DNA from: Stenotrophomonas sp. UBA2302
GTDB lineage: Bacteria > Pseudomonadota > Gammaproteobacteria > Xanthomonadales > Xanthomonadaceae
NCBI GenBank assembly: GCA_002345545.1
Contig: DDVW01000069.1
Span: 56,222 to 82,412 of the forward strand
Length of the DNA: 26,191 nt
Reading direction: 5' to 3'
The notes under the pieces are model-generated. The model did not search any database, was not told the DNA's origin, and saw only the letters and a program-made list of their open reading frames with translations. The translations under genes and the position numbers were made by a program. This document shows, in pieces, positions 5,654 to 21,330 of this stretch (the stretch's first letter is position 1; every line of letters begins with the position of its first letter).

Positions 5654-6286
5654 TTACTTGATCTGTGCCCGCTTGCCCTGCCCGAGGGCATAGACTTCCG
5701 GCGAACGGGCGCGGGAGGCCTCCGGCTTGCGGATCACGACCTTGTCGAAACGACGGCGCATTTCACGCACGTAGTCATCAAAGCCGACGCCCTGGAACAG
5801 CTTGATCAGGAACGCCCCACCGGGCTTGAGGTGGTTGTCGGAAAAATCCAGTGCCAACTCCGCCAGGTACATCATCCGCGGCTGGTCGACCGCCGTCATA
5901 CCACTTTTATTGGGGGCCATATCCGACAGCACAAGGTCTACCGGCTGACCGCCGAGCATGGCTTCGAACTGCGATAGGACGGCTTCCTCCCTGAAGTCCC
6001 CATGAAGGAACTCCACGCCGGCCAGCGGCGGCATCTCCAGGATGTCCAGCGCCAGCACGCGGCCGCTGTCGCCCATCTGCTTGCGCACCTGTTGCGACCA
6101 GCCGCCGGGCGCGGCGCCGAGGTCGACCACGACCATGTCCGGCTTCAGCAAGCGGTCACGCGCCAGCATCTCCTCCAGCTTGTAGGCGGCACGCGAACGC
6201 ATGCCTTCCGCCTGCGCCTTCTTCACGAAGGGATCGGAGAAATGTTCTTTCAACCAGCGTTGACTGCTTTTACTGCGGGAGGCCAT
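5654..6286 (-). CDS. rlmE: 23S rRNA 2'-O-methyltransferase RlmE (RrmJ/FtsJ)
   Basis: RlmE methylates the 2'-OH of U2552 in the A-loop of 23S rRNA, a late step in 50S assembly, using S-adenosylmethionine. The 210-residue protein matches the family length. The catalytic K-D-K-E tetrad is visible at K36, D122, K162 and E197. The SAM-binding motif I is VVDLGAAPGGWSQ (residues 53-65), and LSDMAPNKSG carries the catalytic Asp. It is divergent from yhbY with 64 bases between the start codons and is followed by ftsH, the conserved rlmE-ftsH pair. The short divergent gap must hold promoters for both directions, but I could not assign clear -10/-35 boxes. Confidence 0.97.
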   Translation of the reverse strand: MASRSKSSQRWLKEHFSDPFVKKAQAEGMRSRAAYKLEEMLARDRLLKPDMVVVDLGAAPGGWSQQVRKQMGDSGRVLALDILEMPPLAGVEFLHGDFREEAVLSQFEAMLGGQPVDLVLSDMAPNKSGMTAVDQPRMMYLAELALDFSDNHLKPGGAFLIKLFQGVGFDDYVREMRRRFDKVVIRKPEASRARSPEVYALGQGKRAQIK

Positions 6287-7375: not shown

Positions 7376-7387
7376 ATGCACTCCGCC

Positions 7388-8248
7388 ATGACCGCACGCC
7401 GTTACCTGCAACTGGACGTCTTCGCCGCCCGCCCGGGCGCCGGCAACCCGCTGGGCGTCATCGTCGACAGCGAAGGTCTGGACGATGCCGCCATGCAGGC
7501 CATCGCCGCATGGCTGAACCTGTCCGAGACCATCTTCTTCCTGCCGCCGGACGAAGGTGCCAGCTACCGCATCCGCATCTTCACCCCGAAGGGCGAACTG
7601 CCGTTCGCCGGCCACCCCAGCGTCGGCGCGGCGTGGGCGGCGGTCGAGCTGGGACTGGCCACGCCCGATGATGCCGGCCAGCTGGTCCAGCAATGTCCCG
7701 CCGGGCTGCTGCCGGTGCGGGTGCAGGGCGGCCGCTGGTTCCGCCAGATCCACGTGCGCAGCCCGCAGGCCGAGCGCCGCGCCATCGAAGTACCGGCACT
7801 ACCCGAAGGCCTGGCAGCGCTGGCCAAGCCCGGCCATGCCCCGAAACTGTGGAACAACGGCCCGGACTGGTGGCTGCTGGAAGCCGGTAGCGAAGCCGCG
7901 CTGCGCCGCTACCAGCCGGAACTGGCCGCCATCGCCGCCCTGCCCGGGCGCGGCAAGCTGGCCGTGTTCACCGCCGCCGACCGTCCGGACGTGGGCTATC
8001 AATATGTGCTGCGCGCCTTCGCCCCCGGCGTCGGCATCAACGAAGACCCGGTCACCGGCAGCGCCAATGCGCTGGTCGCCGCGCAGCTGCTGGCCCAGGG
8101 CCGGATCAAGCCGTTCCAGCAGTACCTGGCCAGCCAGGGCCGCGAGCTGGGCCGCGCCGGCGAGGTGCGGGTGGAAGTCGACGGCGATTCCAACATCTGG
8201 ATCGGCGGCGAGGTACAGCAGGTGATTTCCGGGCAACTGGAATGGTGA
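7388..8248 (+). CDS. PhzF-family isomerase, paralogue 1
   Basis: PhzF-family proteins have a diaminopimelate-epimerase-like two-domain fold; PhzF itself isomerises DHHA in phenazine synthesis, while most relatives have unknown substrates. From ATG 7388 the product is 286 residues, starting MTARRYLQLDVFAARPGAGN. The general acid/base Glu is conserved (E47 in LNLSETIFF). The PFAGHPSVGAAWA motif and the second-half motif NEDPVTGSANALVA are both canonical. An in-frame ATG at 7376 would add four residues, but alignment with the next gene favours 7388. No other phenazine genes are nearby, so phenazine synthesis is not implied. It is followed by a close paralogue 78 bases downstream. Confidence 0.9.
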   Translation: MTARRYLQLDVFAARPGAGNPLGVIVDSEGLDDAAMQAIAAWLNLSETIFFLPPDEGASYRIRIFTPKGELPFAGHPSVGAAWAAVELGLATPDDAGQLVQQCPAGLLPVRVQGGRWFRQIHVRSPQAERRAIEVPALPEGLAALAKPGHAPKLWNNGPDWWLLEAGSEAALRRYQPELAAIAALPGRGKLAVFTAADRPDVGYQYVLRAFAPGVGINEDPVTGSANALVAAQLLAQGRIKPFQQYLASQGRELGRAGEVRVEVDGDSNIWIGGEVQQVISGQLEW

Positions 8249-8326
8249 GCGGCCTTCCTGCACCACATGCGCCCCCCGCCTGCCCGCTGATTACCCACCC
8301 GCTCCACTGATTACGGACACCCCGCC

Positions 8327-9202
8327 ATGACCACCCGCCGCTTCCTGCAACTGGATGTCTTCGCCCCGCGCCCCGGCACCGGCAATCCGCTGGCCGTGGT
8401 GCTCGATGCCGACGGTCTGGATGACGCCGCGATGCAGGCCATCGCCCGCTGGACCCGCCTGCCCGAGACCACCTTCATCAGCGCCCCCACCGTGCCGGGC
8501 ACCAGCTACCGCATCCGCATGTTCGCGCCGCAGAAGGAAGTGCCGTTCGCCGGCCATCCCAGCGTCGGCAGTGCACACGCGGTGCTGGAAGCCGGCCTCG
8601 CCGCGCCGCTCGACGGCCAGCTGATCCAGGACGGCATCGCCGGGCAACTGCCGCTGCGCATCAGCGAGCACGACGGCGTGCGCACCATCGCCATCCGCAC
8701 CCCGCGTGCGGCGGTGGCCGAAGTGGTCGGCGCCGACGATCCGCGCCTGCAACCGGCGATCAGTGGCTGGCCGCTGGGCGGGCTGCCGCCGGTGCTGATG
8801 GACGGCGGTCGCCGCTGGTGGCTGGTGGAAGTGGCCGATGAAGCCACTCTGCGCACGCTCGCCCCGGACTGGGACGCGATCGCCACGCTGGCCGAAAGCA
8901 CCGGCGCGATGGGCGTGTTCGCCTACGCCCGCAGCGAAGGTGAGAGCTACCAACTGGTCGTGCGTGCCTTTGTCGGCAACGGCCGCCGCTTCGAGGATGC
9001 CGCCTCCGGCGCGGCCAATGCGGTGCTGGCCGCGTGGCTGGACGAACGCAACGCGCTGCCCGGCAGCGGCAAACGCTACACCGCCAGCCAGGGCCGCGAG
9101 GTCGGCCATGACGCGCTGCTGGAACTGCACATCGACGCGGACGGCGAGGTCTGGTCCGGTGGCCAGGTGCAGACCGTGATCCGCGGAACCATCGACTGGT
9201 AG
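8327..9202 (+). CDS. PhzF-family isomerase, paralogue 2
   Basis: A 291-residue paralogue of the preceding gene, colinear over its whole length: MTTRRFLQLDVFAPRPGTGN, then the catalytic Glu (E47 in TRLPETTFI) and VPFAGHPSVGSAHAV. The second-half motif has diverged: the usual EDPVTGSA is EDAASGAA here, losing Pro, Val and Thr of the glycine-rich active-site loop while keeping the Asp. Substrate or activity may therefore differ from paralogue 1. The ATG at 8327 is unambiguous. The pair probably arose by tandem duplication and is transcribed together, with the acetyltransferase gene following 45 bases on. Confidence 0.9.
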   Translation: MTTRRFLQLDVFAPRPGTGNPLAVVLDADGLDDAAMQAIARWTRLPETTFISAPTVPGTSYRIRMFAPQKEVPFAGHPSVGSAHAVLEAGLAAPLDGQLIQDGIAGQLPLRISEHDGVRTIAIRTPRAAVAEVVGADDPRLQPAISGWPLGGLPPVLMDGGRRWWLVEVADEATLRTLAPDWDAIATLAESTGAMGVFAYARSEGESYQLVVRAFVGNGRRFEDAASGAANAVLAAWLDERNALPGSGKRYTASQGREVGHDALLELHIDADGEVWSGGQVQTVIRGTIDW

Positions 9203-11321: not shown

Positions 11322-11448
11322 CCGCCCCTGCCATCGCGCGCGGCAAGGGCAAGGACAATGGCGAGGGCAGACGCCACGTCCGCTCGACCACCGCAGCGAT
11401 ACGGCAGCGCCACGTCCCTCGCCATACCGGCAGCGGGCGGCAACCGTG

Positions 11449-11488
11449 CTGTCACCGCAACGTCATACGGGCGACCCGCCGCTGTCAT
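11449..11488 (+). promoter_or_regulatory. Pho box array of pstS1
   Basis: Four 7-mers on an exact 11-bp period: CTGTCAC (11449), ACGTCAT (11460), a degenerate GCGACCC (11471) and CTGTCAT (11482). The first and last match the PhoB half-site CTGTCAY fully. A possible -10 (TATGCA, 11497-11502) lies eight bases after the last half-site, a spacing like that of PhoB-activated promoters. The pstS1 start is 63 bases downstream. Confidence 0.82.
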
Positions 11489-11550
11489 CGAAGGGCTATG
11501 CAATAGGTGCCGGGCGGAACCTCCGCACCTCTCTCTTCCAGGAGCCCTTC

Positions 11551-12570
11551 GTGATCCACACCTTCAAGTCGCGCGCCGCCGTTGCCATCCTCGCCGCATC
11601 CTCCGTGTTCGCCGCCAACGCGGCGGACATCACCGGCGCCGGCGCTTCCTTCATCTATCCGGTCATGACCAAGTGGTCGGCCGACTACAACGCCGCCACC
11701 GGCAAGCAGGTGAACTACCAGTCGATCGGCTCGGGCGGCGGCATTGCCCAGATCAAGGCCAACACGGTGGACTTCGGTTCCTCCGATGCGCCGCTCAAGC
11801 CGGAAGAACTGGCCGCCGCGGGGCTGGTGCAGTTCCCGTCGGTGATCGGCGGCGTGGTGCCGGTGCTCAATGTCGCCGGCGTGCAGGCCGGTGCGATGAA
11901 GCTCGACGGCCCGACCCTGGCCAACATCTTCCTGGGCAGGATCACCAAGTGGAACGATCCGGCCATCGTCGCGCTCAACGGCGGCCTGGACCTTCCCGAT
12001 GCCAAGATCACCGTCGTGCACCGCTCCGACGGTTCGGGCACCACCTTCAACTTCGTCAACTACCTGTCCAAGGTCAACGCCGACTGGAAGACCAGCGTCG
12101 GTGAAGGCACCAGCGTGCAGTGGCCGGTCGGCATCGGCGGCAAGGGCAACGAGGGCGTGGCCGCCTACGTCAAGCAGATCAAGGGCGCCATCGGCTATGT
12201 CGAGTTCTCCTACGCACTGCAGAACCGCCTGACCTTCTCGCGCATGAAGAACGCCGCCGGCAACTTCGTGCAGCCACGCGAGGAGAACTTCTCCGCCGCT
12301 GCCGCCAGCGCCGACTGGGCCGGCACCCGCGACTTCCATCTGGTGATGACCAACGCCCCGGGCGACCAGTCCTGGCCGATCACCGCCACCAACTTCATCC
12401 TGATGCGCAAGCAGCCCAAGAGCGCTGAAGGCGCCAAGGCCGCGGTCGAGTATTTCCGCTGGATCTATGCCAACGGTGACGAACAGGCCCGCCAGCTGGA
12501 TTACGTGCCGCTGCCCGACAGCCTGGTGCGCCAGATCGAAACCTACTGGCAGCAGAACCTGCAGTACTGA
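11551..12570 (+). CDS. pstS: phosphate ABC transporter substrate-binding protein PstS, soluble type
   Basis: PstS is the periplasmic high-affinity phosphate receptor of the Pst ABC transporter. A GTG start at 11551 is chosen because AGGAG lies six bases upstream and a signal peptide follows at once (FKSRAAVAILAASSVFAANA, cleavage near residue 24 or 25). The mature part shows the phosphate-binding segments GAGASFIYP, SIGSGGGIAQI, VDFGSSDAPL and HRSDGSGTTFNF. Length is 339 residues, as usual. It is very similar to the next gene (pstS2) but has a cleavable signal rather than a lipobox, so it should be free in the periplasm or secreted. It has its own Pho box array upstream and its own terminator downstream, so it is probably a single-gene transcript. 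Confidence 0.95.
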   Translation: MIHTFKSRAAVAILAASSVFAANAADITGAGASFIYPVMTKWSADYNAATGKQVNYQSIGSGGGIAQIKANTVDFGSSDAPLKPEELAAAGLVQFPSVIGGVVPVLNVAGVQAGAMKLDGPTLANIFLGRITKWNDPAIVALNGGLDLPDAKITVVHRSDGSGTTFNFVNYLSKVNADWKTSVGEGTSVQWPVGIGGKGNEGVAAYVKQIKGAIGYVEFSYALQNRLTFSRMKNAAGNFVQPREENFSAAAASADWAGTRDFHLVMTNAPGDQSWPITATNFILMRKQPKSAEGAKAAVEYFRWIYANGDEQARQLDYVPLPDSLVRQIETYWQQNLQY

Positions 12571-12609
12571 GCAACGAGACGGCAGGTCCCTCTCTCCCCT
12601 GTCGCCTCA

Positions 12610-12641
12610 GGCGCGGATCAAGCGATCCGCGCCTTCTTTTT
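12610..12641 (+). terminator. Rho-independent terminator of pstS1
   Basis: A perfect 10-bp stem (GGCGCGGATC / GATCCGCGCC) with loop AAGC is followed by TTCTTTTT. It lies 40 bases after the pstS1 stop, so pstS1 is terminated before pstS2. Confidence 0.9.
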
Positions 12642-12995
12642 GCCTTCCGGCAAACCGCGCAAGCCGCGAGCCGGCCAATACCGTTCACCACTGCTGCAGG
12701 AGCGGCGTAAGCCGCGAAGCGTGTGAACCAGTTGCCCTGCGGATCCCTTTCCACTGACCGCCTCCAGGCCCGCTGCCGGTGGAGCATTGAGGTTGCCCAC
12801 ACCCGCGAAACTGCTGCCTTCACGCGGCCAGGCATGTCCCGGCACGATGCGTGGCCCCCTGCGAACGGATCCGCTCCGGCTTTCGAGGTTTATGTCGCCG
12901 CGTGTGTCATCAACGACTCCGTTGCCGGAACCAGCGGCAATCCCGCCTGACATCAAACACCTTGATTCCATTGCCGTTTCCAGATTTCTTTGACG
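12642..12995. repeat. gap between pstS1 and pstS2 with REP-like hairpins
   Basis: About 350 bases without a supported gene. The left third holds two imperfect stem-loops that share AGCCGCGA: CCGGC...GCCGG (12647-12674), and GGAGCGGCGTAAGCCGCGAAG, in which GCGGC (12702-12706) pairs with GCCGC (12711-12715). The second resembles the GGAGCGGC-type REP elements of Pseudomonas and xanthomonads. A short possible reading frame (12723-12950) has no ribosome site or recognisable product. The Pho boxes of pstS2 begin at the right end. Confidence 0.45.
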
Positions 12996-13024
12996 ATGTA
13001 ATCAGGCTGTAACAAAAACATCAT
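12996..13024 (+). promoter_or_regulatory. Pho box array of pstS2
   Basis: Three 7-mers at exact 11-bp spacing: ATGTAAT (12996), CTGTAAC (13007) and ACATCAT (13018), compared with CTGTCAY. The match is weaker than at pstS1 (5, 6 and 4 of 7), but the phase, the A-rich spacer AAAA and the position 55 bases before the pstS2 start support a PhoB site. Confidence 0.7.
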
Positions 13025-13078
13025 TTCATAGCCGCATCCGCTGGTACCGCCAGCCCTTCTCCCGCTATGGAGTGACGC

Positions 13079-14167
13079 ATGAAGCTGCACACGACCGGTC
13101 TTGCCGCCCTTTCGCTGGCCATCGCCCTGGGCCTGTCGGCCTGTGGCGACAACGGCAACCAGGCCGCTTCCGCCCCGCAGAACGCCGCGACCGACGCACC
13201 GGCCGCCACCGACAAGGTGTCGGTCGAAATCGCCGGTGCCGGCGCCTCCTTCATCTACCCGCTGGTGTCCAAGTGGTCGGCCGACTACAACGCCGCCACC
13301 GGCGCCAAGGTCAACTACCAGTCCATCGGCTCCGGTGGCGGCATCGCCCAGATCAAGGCCGGCACCGTGGACTTCGGTTCCTCCGACAAGCCGCTGTCCA
13401 CCGAAGAGCTGGCGCAGGCCGGCCTCGGCCAGTTCCCGTCGGCCATCGGCGGCGTGGTGCCGGTGGTGAACCTCGAAGGCCTGCAGCCGGGCCAGCTGCG
13501 TCTGGACGGCCCGCTGCTGGCGGCCATCTACCTGGGCAAGATCGGCAAGTGGAACGACAAGGCCATCGCCGATGCCAACCCGGGCGTGACCCTGCCCGAC
13601 ACCAAGATCTCGCTGGTGCACCGCTCCGACGGTTCGGGCACCACCTTCAACTTCTCCAACTACCTGTCCAAGGTCAGTGGCCAGTGGAAGGACAGCGTCG
13701 GCGAAGGCACCTCGCTGCAGTGGCCGGACGGCGTCGGCGGCAAGGGCAACGAAGGCGTGGCCTCGTACGTGAAGCAGATCAAGGGTGCCATCGGCTATGT
13801 CGAACTGGCCTACGCGCTGCAGAACAACATGCCGTATGCCTCGATGCAGAACGCTGCCGGCAACTGGGTGCAGCCGACCGCTGAAACCTTTGCCGCCGCC
13901 GCGGCCAGCGCCGACTGGGCCAACGCCAAGGACTTCAACCTGGTGATCACCAATGCACCGGGCGCCAACGCGTGGCCGATCACCGCCACCAACTTCATGC
14001 TGATGCACAAGCAGCCGAAGGACGCCAAGCGCAGCGCCGAGACCCGCGCCTTCTTCAAGTGGGCGTTCGAGAACGGCCAGACCCAGGCCAACGAACTGCA
14101 CTACGTGCCGCTGCCGGCCGAGCTGGTGGCGCAGATCGAAAGCTACTGGGCCGCCGAGTTCAAGTGA
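13079..14167 (+). CDS. pstS: phosphate ABC transporter substrate-binding protein PstS, lipoprotein type
   Basis: A second PstS, 362 residues. The N-terminus MKLHTTGLAALSLAIALGLSACG is a lipoprotein signal with lipobox LSAC (Cys22). A Ala/Asp-rich linker (about residues 24-50) precedes the binding protein, which shares the motifs GAGASFIYP, SIGSGGGIAQI, VDFGSSDKPL and HRSDGSGTTFNF with pstS1. It is therefore probably membrane-tethered. A GGAG six bases before ATG 13079 supports the start. It is followed by pstC, so it is the likely partner of this transporter. The stop codon sits at the foot of a long hairpin that separates it from pstC. Confidence 0.95.
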   Translation: MKLHTTGLAALSLAIALGLSACGDNGNQAASAPQNAATDAPAATDKVSVEIAGAGASFIYPLVSKWSADYNAATGAKVNYQSIGSGGGIAQIKAGTVDFGSSDKPLSTEELAQAGLGQFPSAIGGVVPVVNLEGLQPGQLRLDGPLLAAIYLGKIGKWNDKAIADANPGVTLPDTKISLVHRSDGSGTTFNFSNYLSKVSGQWKDSVGEGTSLQWPDGVGGKGNEGVASYVKQIKGAIGYVELAYALQNNMPYASMQNAAGNWVQPTAETFAAAAASADWANAKDFNLVITNAPGANAWPITATNFMLMHKQPKDAKRSAETRAFFKWAFENGQTQANELHYVPLPAELVAQIESYWAAEFK

Positions 14168-17039: not shown

Positions 17040-17185
17040 GCCGCGTTCCCTCCGCTGCTCCGTCTGCGCGTAGACGCTGCCGTCGCCACGACCGGAACGA
17101 ATGAAATGCCAATGCAGCCCCCGCAGTTCCTTCGGATAAAAGCAGCCTTCCCTACTCCCGCTTCTGTCATAGCCCAGAGACACCC

Positions 17186-17896
17186 ATGAACAATCTTCCC
17201 AACGACCACATCGTCAGAAGCTACGACGAGGAACAGCAGCGCCTGGTCGCCGAAATCGTGCGCATGGGCGAGATGTCCGTCGCCCAGCTGGAAGCGGCGC
17301 TGGACGTGATCGAACGGCGTGACGAGAAGGCCGCCGAACGCATCGTCGCCAACGACGACGCCATCGACGAACTCGAGCAGCAGATCAGCCACGACGTGAT
17401 GCGGCTGGCGCTGCGCGGGCCGATGGCACGCGACCTGCGCGAGATCCTCGCCGGCCTGCGCATTCCCGCCGATATCGAGCGCATCGGCGATTACGCCGCC
17501 AACGTCGCCAAGCGTTCCATCGCACTGGCCAGCATGCCGCCGCTGCCGCATATCCAGGGACTGCAGGCGCTGGGCCAACTGGCCGCGCAGCAGGTCCGCC
17601 GCGCCCTCGAGGCCTATCGCGACAACAATGCCGAGGCCGCCCTGCAGCTGCGGGCCGACGACGCCCGGCTGGACGCGCAGTACACCGCGCTTTTCCGCGA
17701 ACTGCTCACCTACATGATGGAAGACCCGCGCAACATCACCCCATGCACGCACCTGCTGTTCATGGCCAAGAACCTGGAGCGCGTGGGCGACCATGCCACC
17801 AATATCGCCGAGAACGTGTGGTTCCTCGTGCACGGCGATGCGCCGCTGCCGCCGCGCGAGAAGCGCGACGAAACCAGCACCGTCGACCACGCCTGA
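17186..17896 (+). CDS. phoU: phosphate signalling regulator PhoU
   Basis: PhoU is a cytoplasmic helical protein that links the Pst transporter to the PhoR kinase and restrains PhoB activation when phosphate is abundant (family knowledge). The 236 residues form the two PhoU repeats, each with the metal-binding signature: ERIGDYAANVAKR in the first and ERVGDHATNIAEN in the second. Length is close to the E. coli protein (241). ATG 17186 gives the typical N-terminus with IVRSYDEEQQRLVAEIVRMG. It ends the pst cluster. phoB and phoR, which flank phoU in some bacteria, are not in this window. Confidence 0.95.
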   Translation: MNNLPNDHIVRSYDEEQQRLVAEIVRMGEMSVAQLEAALDVIERRDEKAAERIVANDDAIDELEQQISHDVMRLALRGPMARDLREILAGLRIPADIERIGDYAANVAKRSIALASMPPLPHIQGLQALGQLAAQQVRRALEAYRDNNAEAALQLRADDARLDAQYTALFRELLTYMMEDPRNITPCTHLLFMAKNLERVGDHATNIAENVWFLVHGDAPLPPREKRDETSTVDHA

Positions 17897-17949
17897 ACAC
17901 GGACCGGCAGCGGCGCTGGCCGCTGTCCCGTTGCAGCACAGTCGCGGCC

Positions 17950-17991
17950 CGGGCACGGCGCTGCCGGCATCGCCCGGCCGCGCCGTGCCCG
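17950..17991 (+). terminator. probable terminator hairpin after phoU
   Basis: GGGCACGGCG (17951-17960) pairs perfectly with CGCCGTGCCC (17981-17990), and an inner GCCGG/CCGGC stem extends it. It lies 54 bases after phoU and before bufA. No T run follows, so it may be Rho-assisted or an mRNA end stabiliser. Confidence 0.5.
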
Positions 17992-18080
17992 TATGCGTGC
18001 GCGGAAAACCACGCCGACGCGCATGGATGCTTGCTACTCTCCGCTCTCCCCCGGCCCAACCCTTTCCGGAGAGCGCAGAC

Positions 18081-18494
18081 ATGGCCATCGACATCCGCAA
18101 AACCACTTCCCTTGCCCTCGGTGCCGCCCTGATCGGTGGCCTGGCCTCGGCTCCGGCCTTCGCCATCAACGATCTGGCCCAAGGCTACGCACTCGGCGCC
18201 ACCGTGCAGACTCCGCCGACCGCCGAGACGCAGGCCACCAGCGAAGACACCAAGACCGAAGACGCCCACGCCAAGCACAGCGCCGAGGGCAAGTGTGGCG
18301 AAGGCAAGTGCGGCGCCAGCGACAACAAGACCGACGATGCAAAGACCCACGCCGAAGGCAAATGTGGCGAGGGCAAATGCGGCGCCAGCAAGGACACATC
18401 TGCCGACGCCAAGGCCGCAGACAAGGCCACCGGCGAAGCCAAGGCACAGGCCGAAGGCAAGTGTGGCGAGGGCAAGTGTGGCGGCAACCACTGA
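18081..18494 (+). CDS. bufA1: BufA1/HvfA-type bufferin precursor peptide
   Basis: A 137-residue exported, low-complexity protein. It has a signal peptide ([20 protein letters not shown], cleavage after AFA at residue 28). The body is hydrophilic and rich in Ala, Lys, Asp and Thr, with three copies of the ten-residue motif [10 protein letters not shown] giving six cysteines (72, 77, 95, 100, 128, 133), ending GGNH. This is the hallmark of bufferin/HvfA precursors, RiPPs in which a DUF692 enzyme converts the EGKCG cysteines to copper-binding heterocycle/thioamide groups, as published for Caulobacter and Haemophilus. TCCGGAGAG ahead of ATG 18081 provides a ribosome site. The next two genes encode the expected modification enzymes, and the reading frames overlap. 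Copper buffering in the periplasm is the likely role, by inference. Confidence 0.9.
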
Positions 18495-19356
18495 GTCACC
18501 CACCTCCACTCCGCACTGGCCGGTTCCGGCCGGTGCAGGGCTGGGTCTGCGACGTTCCTTGCTGGACGCCCTGCTGGCGGCACCGGCCGATGCGTTTGAT
18601 TTCCTCGAATGTGCGCCGGACAACTGGATCGGCGTCGGTGGCCGGCTGGGCGAGGCGCTGGCCGAGCTGTCGCAGCGGCACCCGCTGAGCTGCCACGGCC
18701 TGTCGCTGTCGCTCGGCGGCCCGGCGCCACTGGATGTGGACTTCCTCACCCGTACCCGCGGCTTTCTCGACCGGCACCGGGTGGCGCTGTACAGCGAGCA
18801 CCTGAGCTGGTGCAGCGATGACGGCCATCTGTACGAGCTGCTGCCGCTGCCCTTCACCGAAGAAGCCGTGCGGCACGTGGCCGCGCGCATCCGCCAGACC
18901 CAGGACATCCTCGGCCGCCGCATCGCGGTGGAGAACGCCTCCTACTACGCCGTGCCCGCCGCCGACATGGATGAGGCCGGCTTCATCAACGCGGTGCTGG
19001 ACGAGGCCGACTGCGACCTGCTGCTGGATGTGAACAACGTCTACGTCAACGCCATCAACCACGGCTATGACGCGCGGGAGTTCCTCGCCCGGCTGCCATC
19101 GGCGCGCATTGCCAGCTACCACGTCGCCGGTCATCACGACGAAGCCGTCGACCTGAAGATCGACACCCACGGCATGCCGGTCAAGGACGATGTGTGGTCA
19201 CTGCTGGCGCACACCTACGCACGGCATGGCGTGCGCCCGACCCTGCTGGAGCGCGACTTCAATTTCCCGCCACTGGCCGAGCTGCTGGCCGAAGTCGACC
19301 AGATCCGCCAGCTGCAGCAGGCTGCCGTTCCGGTGACGGCTTCCACCCATGGCTGA
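18478..19356 (+). CDS. bufB: DUF692/MNIO family peptide-modifying enzyme (BufB)
   Basis: A multinuclear non-haem iron-dependent oxidase (MNIO, DUF692), the MbnB relative that modifies precursor cysteines. The TIM-barrel sequence shows candidate iron ligands in the expected order: H73 (CHGLSLSLG), H108 (YSEHLSW), E152 (AVENASYY), D184/N187 (DVNNVYVN), H215 and H219 (YHVAGHH), D229 (KIDTHG) and E258 (LERDFNFP). The frame has no ATG near the family N-terminus. GTG 18478, with GAGGG five bases upstream inside the last bufA repeat, gives 292 residues and overlaps bufA by 17 bases; GTG 18463 is an alternative. The end overlaps bufC by 8 bases. The three-gene coupling supports a role on the BufA peptide. 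Confidence 0.9.
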
Positions 19357-20122
19357 GTCGCTGCGCGAACTGCAGTTGCGCTTCGCCGCCCACCTGCGTG
19401 ATCCGCAGCAGCAACCGGCACCGGCGCGGATCGATGCGCGCCGCCTGCAGGTCTATCGCGAGCTGTACTTCAACAATATCCAGAGCCTGCTGGCGGCCAA
19501 CTTCCCGGTCATCGCCCGCACGCTGGGCGAGCAGCACTGGCTGTCGCTGGTGCGCGCGTTCTGCCGCGAGCATCGCGCGCGCTCGCCGCTGTTCCCGGAG
19601 ATCGGCCAGGAGTTCATCCATTTCCTCGATACCCGGCCCACCGACAGCGGTGCCCCGTGGCTGCTGGAGCTGGCCCATTACGAATGGATCGAACTTGCCC
19701 TGCAGATCAGCGATGCACCGATGCCGCCGCATGACCCGGACGGCGACCTGCTCGCGGGCGTGCCGGTGCTTTCACCGTGGTGCCGGGCGCTGGCCTACCA
19801 GTGGCCGGTGCACCAGATCGGCCCGGACCACCGGCCCACCTCGCTCCCGTCGCAGCCGACGTTGTTGCTGGCCCGGCGGCAGGCGGACGGCCGCATCGCC
19901 TTCTCCGAACTGTCAGCGCTGCTGTACCGCCTGCTGGAGCGGCTGGAGCTGCACCCCGAGCTGAGCGGCCACCAGCAGCTGCACGCGCTGGCACAGGAAG
20001 CGGCGGTGCCGGCCGATGCCGCGTTCCTGGCCAACGGCGGTGCCATGCTGCAGCTGCTGCGCACGCGTGACTGCGTGCCGGGAACGCGCCTGGAAACCGC
20101 CGACGGACCACGGCAGGCCTGA
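19349..20122 (+). CDS. bufC: DUF2063-family bufferin biosynthesis partner (BufC)
   Basis: DUF2063 proteins pair with DUF692 enzymes as substrate-recognition partners, similar in role to MbnC (family knowledge). The 257 residues start [19 protein letters not shown]. They carry the DUF2063 core [20 protein letters not shown] and [13 protein letters not shown], then [20 protein letters not shown] and the [12 protein letters not shown] segment, all family-typical. The C-terminal half, with [12 protein letters not shown] and repeated [14 protein letters not shown], is less conserved. ATG 19349 overlaps the bufB stop (ATGGCTGA), so translation is coupled. It is the last gene of the operon; no DoxX-type bufD follows. 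Confidence 0.9.
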
Positions 20123-20190
20123 TCAGCCGCCGCGTGACGTCCACCGCCGCAGCCAGCCGCCCTGTCACCCCCCACCCGACCCCGCAAACA

Positions 20191-20216
20191 ACAAAGGCCC
20201 CTTCCGGGGCCTTTGT
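20191..20216. terminator. bidirectional terminator between bufC and the acyltransferase gene
   Basis: An 11-bp perfect stem (ACAAAGGCCCC / GGGGCCTTTGT) with a 4-base loop lies between convergent genes. On the minus strand it continues CCTTTGTTGTTTG, T-rich, so it best serves the acyltransferase transcript, but it can act on bufABC as well. Confidence 0.8.
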
Positions 20217-20234
20217 GCTGCCATCCGGCTGCGC

Positions 20235-21119
20235 TCAGTTGCGGGAGGCCAGCAGCGCGCTGATGTCGGCGTCCTTCTGCAGCCACAGGCCGTTCATCCA
20301 CTGCTGGAACTGCGCGCGGAAGCTGCGGTCATCCTGGTAGTTGCCACCGATCAGTTCGGCCGGGATCGGATGCTGGCGGATCAGCACCTTGATCTCGGGC
20401 ACGCGGTTGCCCATCAGGTCCATCATCGAGGGGATGCCCTTGGGGTAGACGATGGTCACATCCAGCAGCGCGTTCAGGCCCTTGCCCATCGCATCGAGCA
20501 CGAACGCCACGCCACCGGACTTGGGCTTGAGCAGGTGCTGGAACGGCGAGTTCTGCGCGGCGTGCTTTGCGGCGGTGAAACGCGTGCCCTCGACAAAGTT
20601 CATCACCGCCACCGGAATGCTCTGGAACTTCTCGCAGGCCTTGCGGGTGACTTCCATATCGCGTCGGCCCAGCTCCGGGTTCTTGGCGATCTGCTTGCGG
20701 GTGTAGCGGCCCATGAACGGGAAATCCAGCGCCCACCACGCCAGCCCCAGCACCGGCACCCAGAACAGCGAGCGCTTCAGGAAAAAGCGCAGCAGCGGAA
20801 TGCGGCGGTTGAACACCTTCTGCAGCACCAAGATATCCACCCAGCTCTGGTGGTTGGCCAGCACCAGATAGTGGCCGTCACGCAGCAGGTCGGCCTGGCC
20901 TTCCACGCTGAAGCGGGTGCCGGTGAACATCGCCATCATCGCGCTGTTCACCGAGACCCAGCTCTCGGCCAGACCGGTCAGCAACGGGTTGCAGGCCCGC
21001 CGCACCGGCGCGAACGGCAGCACCGCCTTGACCAGCGCCACCACGAACAGCGGCATGCAATGCAGCAGTGTATTGAGGACGATCAGCAGCAGAATAGGGA
21101 CAACGCGCAACCACACCAT
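20235..21119 (-). CDS. YihG-like 1-acyl-glycerol-3-phosphate acyltransferase family protein
   Basis: A membrane-associated acyltransferase of the PlsC superfamily, closest in remembered sequence to E. coli YihG. From ATG 21119 it has 294 residues: an N-terminal hydrophobic helix (about residues 5-35), the HX4D catalytic motif NHQSWVD (H90, D95), PLLRFFLKRSLFWVPVLG, WWALDFPFMGRYT and the acyl-acceptor motif FVEGTRF (175-181). In E. coli YihG contributes to phospholipid acyl composition; the exact acceptor here is unknown. The open frame extends 40 codons further to 21239, but 21119 gives the family length; the ribosome site is weak. It converges with bufC and diverges from the diguanylate cyclase gene. 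Confidence 0.88.
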   Translation of the reverse strand: MVWLRVVPILLLIVLNTLLHCMPLFVVALVKAVLPFAPVRRACNPLLTGLAESWVSVNSAMMAMFTGTRFSVEGQADLLRDGHYLVLANHQSWVDILVLQKVFNRRIPLLRFFLKRSLFWVPVLGLAWWALDFPFMGRYTRKQIAKNPELGRRDMEVTRKACEKFQSIPVAVMNFVEGTRFTAAKHAAQNSPFQHLLKPKSGGVAFVLDAMGKGLNALLDVTIVYPKGIPSMMDLMGNRVPEIKVLIRQHPIPAELIGGNYQDDRSFRAQFQQWMNGLWLQKDADISALLASRN

Positions 21120-21330
21120 TGGCAATACCGGAGCGACCCAGGGCCGAAAGAGCCACAGGGTAGCAAACCCGGCAGCGGCAATTGCCCGCAACCGGCCGGC
21201 GGTTGAGCGCGGCATGCCCGCCGCCCATCGCCAGCACACTCCCTGCCGGCCGCATCCCTTACAGTGGCGTTCCCCCGTGACACCCGGTCATCCGTTCCCA
21301 CCACTCCTGCGACCAGCCTTCCGACGTCCC

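Follow-up and report, generated by a model that had tools for sequence, protein, structure and literature searches.

The bufABC genes downstream of phoU in a 26,191-nucleotide stretch of DNA (the window) probably constitute a three-gene EGKCG-type RiPP operon, the product of which would carry six 5-thiooxazoles, be exported by Sec, bind Cu(I) in the periplasm and protect against copper; we give this reading a probability of about 87%. Support from our analysis consists of the genes themselves, family membership, active-site conservation, a conserved genomic context and the lack of DoxX nearby. The cluster is one more member of a large family with published chemistry, and its absence of DoxX and sigma factor genes is not special.

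A bufABC operon downstream of phoU

In the window, pst genes are followed by phoU and then by bufA, bufB and bufC, all on the plus strand from phoU onwards. The phoU gene (17186..17896), a conserved neighbour, is co-directional and ends 184 bases upstream of bufA; the other direct flank is a convergent acyltransferase gene (Pfam) behind bufC. The bufA/hvfA-like precursor gene (18081..18494) encodes 137 amino acids with an N-terminal signal peptide, three cassettes and six Cys. The bufB/hvfB-like MNIO gene (PF05114; 18478..19356) begins with GTG and overlaps bufA by 17 bases, and the gene for the bufC/hvfC-like partner (DUF2063 plus NGO1945_C; 19349..20122) overlaps bufB by 8 bases. On inspection, no other in-frame ATG, GTG or TTG lies between this GTG and the conserved core of BufB, which fixes the 17-base overlap. 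Family-model matches and the number of BufA homologues ruled out chance open reading frames, and plasmid origin was rejected because only two plasmid records match, each over 3% of 17100-21300. No Rfam RNA element reached the gathering score in 17800-20400.

BufB is 89% identical to BufB of S. pictorum and lies beside it within a starred clade of nine rows in a ‘quick’ BufB tree, the root of which is weak and 26 of the 84 inner branches of which are open. The source of the window reads like a Stenotrophomonas-type bacterium.

Precursor, enzyme and partner

The preliminary description had reported an exported-looking Cys-rich peptide with three repeats and six Cys, an MNIO/DUF692 enzyme with candidate iron ligands and a DUF2063 partner, with gene overlaps of 17 and 8 bases. 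All of this was confirmed, by coordinates, translation and repeat model for BufA, by the PF05114 and HvfB family matches and invariant residues for BufB, and by the HvfC family match and coordinates for BufC.

BufA contains three identical decapeptide cassettes of two Cys each, and its signal peptide was judged by eye, with cleavage after AFA. The cassettes fall within a threefold 67-nt direct repeat (18252-18486), with 72% and 79% identity to the reference copy; as the decapeptides are identical despite this divergence, the motif is maintained at the protein level. BufA scores 64.4 bits with the KCGExKCG_twice model (cut-off 19.5) and 62 bits with the full-length HvfA equivalog (NF050188), under the cut-off of 95, and 1484 homologues were found at E <= 0.001 among 7995 candidates scored. 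It has no Pfam match, hence no DUF2282. One relative (P0004, 91%) shares the three two-Cys cassettes; the precursors of S. pictorum and two other Stenotrophomonas have two, those of S. pictorum holding four Cys. Cassette number thus differs between relatives, which makes the six Cys a variable copy number rather than a fixed design. Among the pst-linked loci of the best 80 of 578 related loci, the precursors as picked contain from 0 to 11 EGKCG motifs, so that, together with the four cassette Cys of S. pictorum, a fixed copper stoichiometry is unlikely.

BufB matches PF05114 (348.7 bits) and the NCBIfam HvfB family (428 bits, cut-off 360), and falls below the cut-off of the NCBIfam BufB equivalog (277.8 against 310 bits). 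Residues 18-284 match, in two stretches, PDB 3BWW, a Histophilus somni MNIO described as 72.4% identical to HvfB (PMC13419390). We aligned 87 BufB sequences, from the best 80 of 578 loci, six clade relatives and the window, and found H73, E107, H108, E152, D184, N186, N187, H215, H219, D229, H231, E258, D260 and R25-R26 invariant in all 87. Over the 19 positions checked, 16 are invariant, F261 is present in 85 of 87 sequences, and A46 and H220 vary. In FonB, Arg15/Arg16 and Asp249/Phe250 are reported to shape EGKCG selectivity, Asp249 also acting in catalysis as the proposed base (PMC13097082); by motif rather than by alignment to the FonB sequence, R25-R26 and D260-F261 of BufB appear to correspond to these pairs. 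Ala variants of HvfB at N175, D242 and H244 are reported to be inactive (PMC13419390), and N186 or N187, D229 and H231 are their likely counterparts under the mapping we infer. BufC matches the HvfC family at 286.8 bits (cut-off 142), and its Pfam domains are DUF2063 and NGO1945_C.

Assignment to the EGKCG branch

Judged by its sequence, the cluster belongs to the EGKCG (oxazolin, ‘captophorin’) branch and not to the DUF2282 bufferins. It combines a repeated-EGKCG precursor with a signal peptide (by inspection), an HvfB-family MNIO with the metal, Arg-Arg and Asp-Phe residues, and a DUF2063/RRE partner (PME1, HvfC). DUF2282 bufferin membership was rejected on the missing Pfam match of BufA and the sub-cut-off equivalog score of BufB. 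The earlier label of a bufferin-type system holds for the family, but the branch is EGKCG/oxazolin and the product of homologues is a 5-thiooxazole: the oxazolin (oxazolone/thioamide) structure first given for EGKCG products has been revised to 5-thiooxazoles (PMC13097082). HvfA, with a signal peptide and three two-Cys EGKCG motifs, is reported in a preprint to acquire six 5-thiooxazoles (PMC13419390), and six would be expected here by analogy with homologues.

Among described systems, the hvf operon of nontypeable Haemophilus influenzae resembles the window in its three-motif precursor with signal peptide, in six modified Cys (known for HvfA) and in its HvfB/HvfC-family enzymes, but it includes a DoxX-like HvfX, and none was found in the window. 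The fon operon of Fontimonas thermophila, which makes the captophorin fontiphorin, consists as here of MNIO, partner and EGKCG precursor alone; set side by side from its description, fontiphorin carries seven 5-thiooxazoles (PMC13097082), against six Cys in the window’s BufA. The mmr operon of the marine genus Microbulbifer (MmrA, MmrB and MmrC; bulbicupramide), likewise compared by description, comprises mmrABC and EGKCG units, and the precursor of strain VAAF005 has three two-Cys cassettes, as in the window (PMC12538549). Bufferin 1 (DUF2282) clusters, for example in Caulobacter, also pair an MNIO and a DUF2063 partner with an exported Cys-bearing precursor (PMC12452194), whereas the window’s BufA lacks DUF2282, its BufB is below the equivalog cut-off, and no NrsF occurs in 15 related genomes. 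The Buf_EGKC|EF-hand precursors (EfhP type) of Pseudomonas and many Lysobacteraceae share the repeat and enzymes with the window and are often found at the pst-phoU slot, but the window’s precursor lacks their EF-hand pair.

DoxX and the three-gene form

A profile grown from relatives with one seed found no DoxX in the 26-kb window, which upholds the three-gene form of the preliminary description. As a ‘minimal’ form it is ordinary. EGKCG/oxazolin clusters are described as combining precursor, MNIO, DUF2063 and DoxX genes in differing ways (PMC12452194), the fon cluster is itself called a ‘minimal case’ of MNIO, partner and precursor only (PMC13097082), and the mmr system is described as mmrABC in a paper the main text of which does not mention DoxX (PMC12538549). 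Among the best 80 of 578 related loci, 52 are linked to pst, and 44 of these have no DoxX adjacent to bufC; the window thus shows the form that prevails at its slot. The other eight (L051, L058, L062, L066, L069, L072, L075 and L077) carry DoxX behind bufC and include S. maltophilia loci. DoxX occurs in the fetched DNA of 22 of the 28 loci in the same set that are not pst-linked, mostly upstream or on the opposite strand; of the six remaining, two (L001 and L002) are truncated where their contigs stop. With these two left out and kinship ignored, DoxX and pst linkage are associated (8/52 versus 22/26, Fisher p 3e-9). A Pfam scan of 73 of the 97 downstream open reading frames behind bufC found RNase T in 37 and DoxX in 6; the DoxX genes of L051 and L066, found by profile, lie outside these 73.

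In the window’s clade, all six loci with uncut DNA (L089, L090, L091, L092, L093 and L094) have the order phoU-bufABC-rnt without DoxX, two further loci (L088 and L095) being cut on the upstream side. The window differs from its clade in having the acyltransferase gene, not rnt, behind bufC. The genome search for DoxX proposed in the preliminary description was made in clade relatives: PF07681 has no match in five of the eight genomes (G001, G002, G003, G068 and G086) and one or two elsewhere in the genome in the other three (G025, G065 and G097), as well as one in G027, which lies outside the clade in the tree. With the HvfX model (cut-off 80 bits), the best DoxX protein of each of G097, G065, G027 and G025 reaches 32-43 bits, compared with 154 and 147 bits for the bufC-linked DoxX proteins in L072 and L062. 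DoxX/HvfX is called uncharacterised (PMC13419390). The three-gene form is common in the EGKCG family and is not a new kind of system.

Variation at the pst-phoU slot

A co-directional phoU lies upstream of bufA in 52 of the best 80 of 578 related loci, as in the window, and the slot in Lysobacteraceae can be written pst-phoU-[ECF sigma]-bufABC-[doxX]-rnt. Of these 52 pst-linked loci, 12 carry an intact ECF-type sigma gene in the phoU-bufA interval (L006, L008, L014, L018, L019, L028, L034, L051, L062, L075, L077 and L078; for example L006:5000-5512, L008:4845-5408, L014:4942-5481, L028:4709-5326 and L062:4846-5394), and in L050 the match is fragmented. The 12 genes are 55-97% identical to one another, and Sigma70 region 4 was above cut-off in all eight that were Pfam-scanned. 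No member of this family was found at E 1e-8 in the window or the other loci searched; a paralogue of 31-36% identity occurs once in seven of the eight clade genomes and is absent from G001 (E 1e-10). NrsF was found in none of 15 related genomes, Caulobacter being positive in the control set. Sigma and NrsF (anti-sigma) genes are described for Buf1 (DUF2282) and not for Buf2 clusters (PMC12452194), and so the earlier expectation that a sigma factor is often present fails for Buf2 as published, while a different ECF gene does accompany the 12 relatives. Neither this ECF gene nor the pst-phoU linkage was found in the main-text passages searched, including those of PMC12452194, PMC13097082, PMC13419390, PMC12538549, PMC12668002 and PMC11559002.

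Precursors vary as well. Among the best 80 of 578 loci, 39 of the 52 pst-linked precursors have an EF-hand pair, 37 by letter pattern and two, L022 and L030, on inspection; L050 yielded no EGKCG precursor, nor did L001 and L002, which end with their contigs. The pair is absent from the window, its clade, the pst loci of the S. maltophilia group, both Xanthomonas loci, one Pseudoxanthomonas and some Lysobacter. An RcnB-like gene (PF11776) sits between phoU and bufA in four of the six close relatives (L003:4934-5308, which is the same as L091, and L089, L090 and L094), and none is present in the window’s 184-base gap. With DoxX/HvfX, a private ECF sigma gene and an EF-hand pair each present in some loci and absent from others, this single chromosomal slot offers a natural comparison set; strains with and without each element would make the role of DoxX in EGKCG peptides directly testable.

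Expression signals

A promoter-like block, GCTTGCTACTCTCC (18029..18042, plus strand), lies some 40-50 bases upstream of where bufA starts and resembles an extended -10 element. Six relatives carry GCTTGCTAAGCTCC at this position, and GCTTGCTA..CTCC before bufA is common to the window and these six. Six of the eight clade genomes each have a single exact copy of the 14-base GCTTGCTAAGCTCC, located a few hundred bases upstream of bufB; in the other two (G001 and G002) the sequence upstream of bufB is truncated. With one mismatch there are eight matches in total against nine for a reversed control pattern, among them one in G001 before a peptidase-like gene (labelled by eye) and one elsewhere in G065. 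A looser form of the block (two free positions, one mismatch) has one match in the window against 0.10 expected, and 10 of 100 shuffles match. Conservation at one place and mismatch counts no better than the control point to a plain promoter element rather than a regulon box. The block shared with six relatives was not found in the parts of the literature covered by our search.

Between 17000 and 20500, a sigma-70 consensus scan gave no promoters (0.3 expected), and a simple terminator scan gave one terminator-like site, at 19848 inside bufC (1.3 expected). A strong hairpin (20191..20216, no strand assigned) between bufC and the convergent acyltransferase gene has A-rich and T-rich arms and no further T-run; its 76-nt stretch has a z of -3.51, and it is absent from the terminator scan’s list. 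A hairpin between phoU and bufA was rejected as a terminator (81-nt stretch, z -0.10, no T-run). No Pho box was found near bufA; the window has two weak matches, one at 5893 and one beside pstS at 11449, which do not exceed chance expectation. We infer an own promoter and terminator for bufABC; read-through from pst is possible but finds no support.

Proposed function and alternatives

By analogy with HvfC, BufC would recognize the signal-peptide/leader part of BufA and bring BufB into its active iron state, and BufB, by analogy with HvfB, would be a mixed-valent diiron oxidase. It would convert the six EGKCG Cys to 5-thiooxazoles in the cytoplasm, a change of about -4 Da each and -24 Da in all; the three-cassette MmrA is reported to lose 24 H over its six Cys, a shift of -24.2 Da (PMC12538549). 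The modified peptide would then be exported, presumably by Sec, and bind Cu(I) in the periplasm, as the chemistry and Cu binding published for homologues suggest; its most likely role would be protection against excess copper. Cu binding has been demonstrated biochemically for homologues (PMC13097082, PMC13419390), MBP-fused fontiphorin taking as many as four Cu (PMC13097082), and by this analogy a copper-buffer role is likely for the branch. A periplasmic copper buffer with six modified Cys, as first suggested, is thus sustained for likely export and for six Cys to be modified, and its copper role is likely by analogy with homologues. DoxX/HvfX would be unnecessary for modification, since modified peptides are reported from E. 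coli carrying fonABC, hvfABC, ngo genes or mmrABC (PMC13097082, PMC12538549); between missing functions ‘encoded elsewhere’ and ‘needs none’, the latter is the better choice for this step, on fonABC, hvfABC and mmrABC.

The window could instead hold a decayed four-gene cluster that lost DoxX/HvfX in its lineage and works only partly. The eight pst-linked relatives with DoxX behind bufC, same-genus S. maltophilia loci among them, are compatible with this, as is the wider BufB-tree group around the window (42 rows, 95*), which includes a 25-row unlinked set with DoxX in the fetched DNA of 21. However, the active-site residues of BufB are intact, the DoxX-free order is kept in all six close relatives whose locus is uncut, and the eight pst-linked DoxX rows sit elsewhere in the tree. 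The pst-linked rows require at least four changes of DoxX state, a kind of count that is blind to gain versus loss. We consider decay very improbable. We hold in equally low regard a Pho-response operon, expressed by pst-phoU read-through and making a peptide for phosphate-starved rather than copper-stressed cells: co-directional phoU is in its favour, but there is no Pho-box-like site near bufA, the conserved promoter-like block precedes bufA, and the phoU-bufA gap, which depends on the start codon picked, is at least 0.7 kb in 15 of the 47 loci with a computed gap.

That the peptide handles another metal or stress, such as gold, nickel, zinc or oxidants, is unlikely. PF11776 describes a nickel/cobalt transporter regulator, and its presence before bufA in four of six close relatives fits such a role, as does the frequent induction of related clusters by gold and oxidative stress (PMC13097082); yet the gene is missing from the window’s phoU-bufA gap, and the biochemistry of homologues is that of Cu binding (PMC13097082, PMC13419390). 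It is distinctly doubtful that the modular slot, with its optional ECF sigma gene in front, DoxX behind and EF-hand pair in the precursor, reflects a real phosphate-copper regulatory link, of which the window would be a stripped-down form with its own promoter. The proposed copper-protective EGKCG operon agrees with the retention of locus and block before bufA in six close relatives.

Other features of the window and its relatives

Two consecutive pstS-like genes precede pstC at 11446-14167 of the window (labelled by inspection and shared tblastn matches). Two adjacent, related-looking open reading frames at 7376-9202 presumably resemble PhzF-family proteins. In S. pictorum, a group II intron-type reverse transcriptase gene (L001:2522-4309) lies ~0.9 kb behind bufC.
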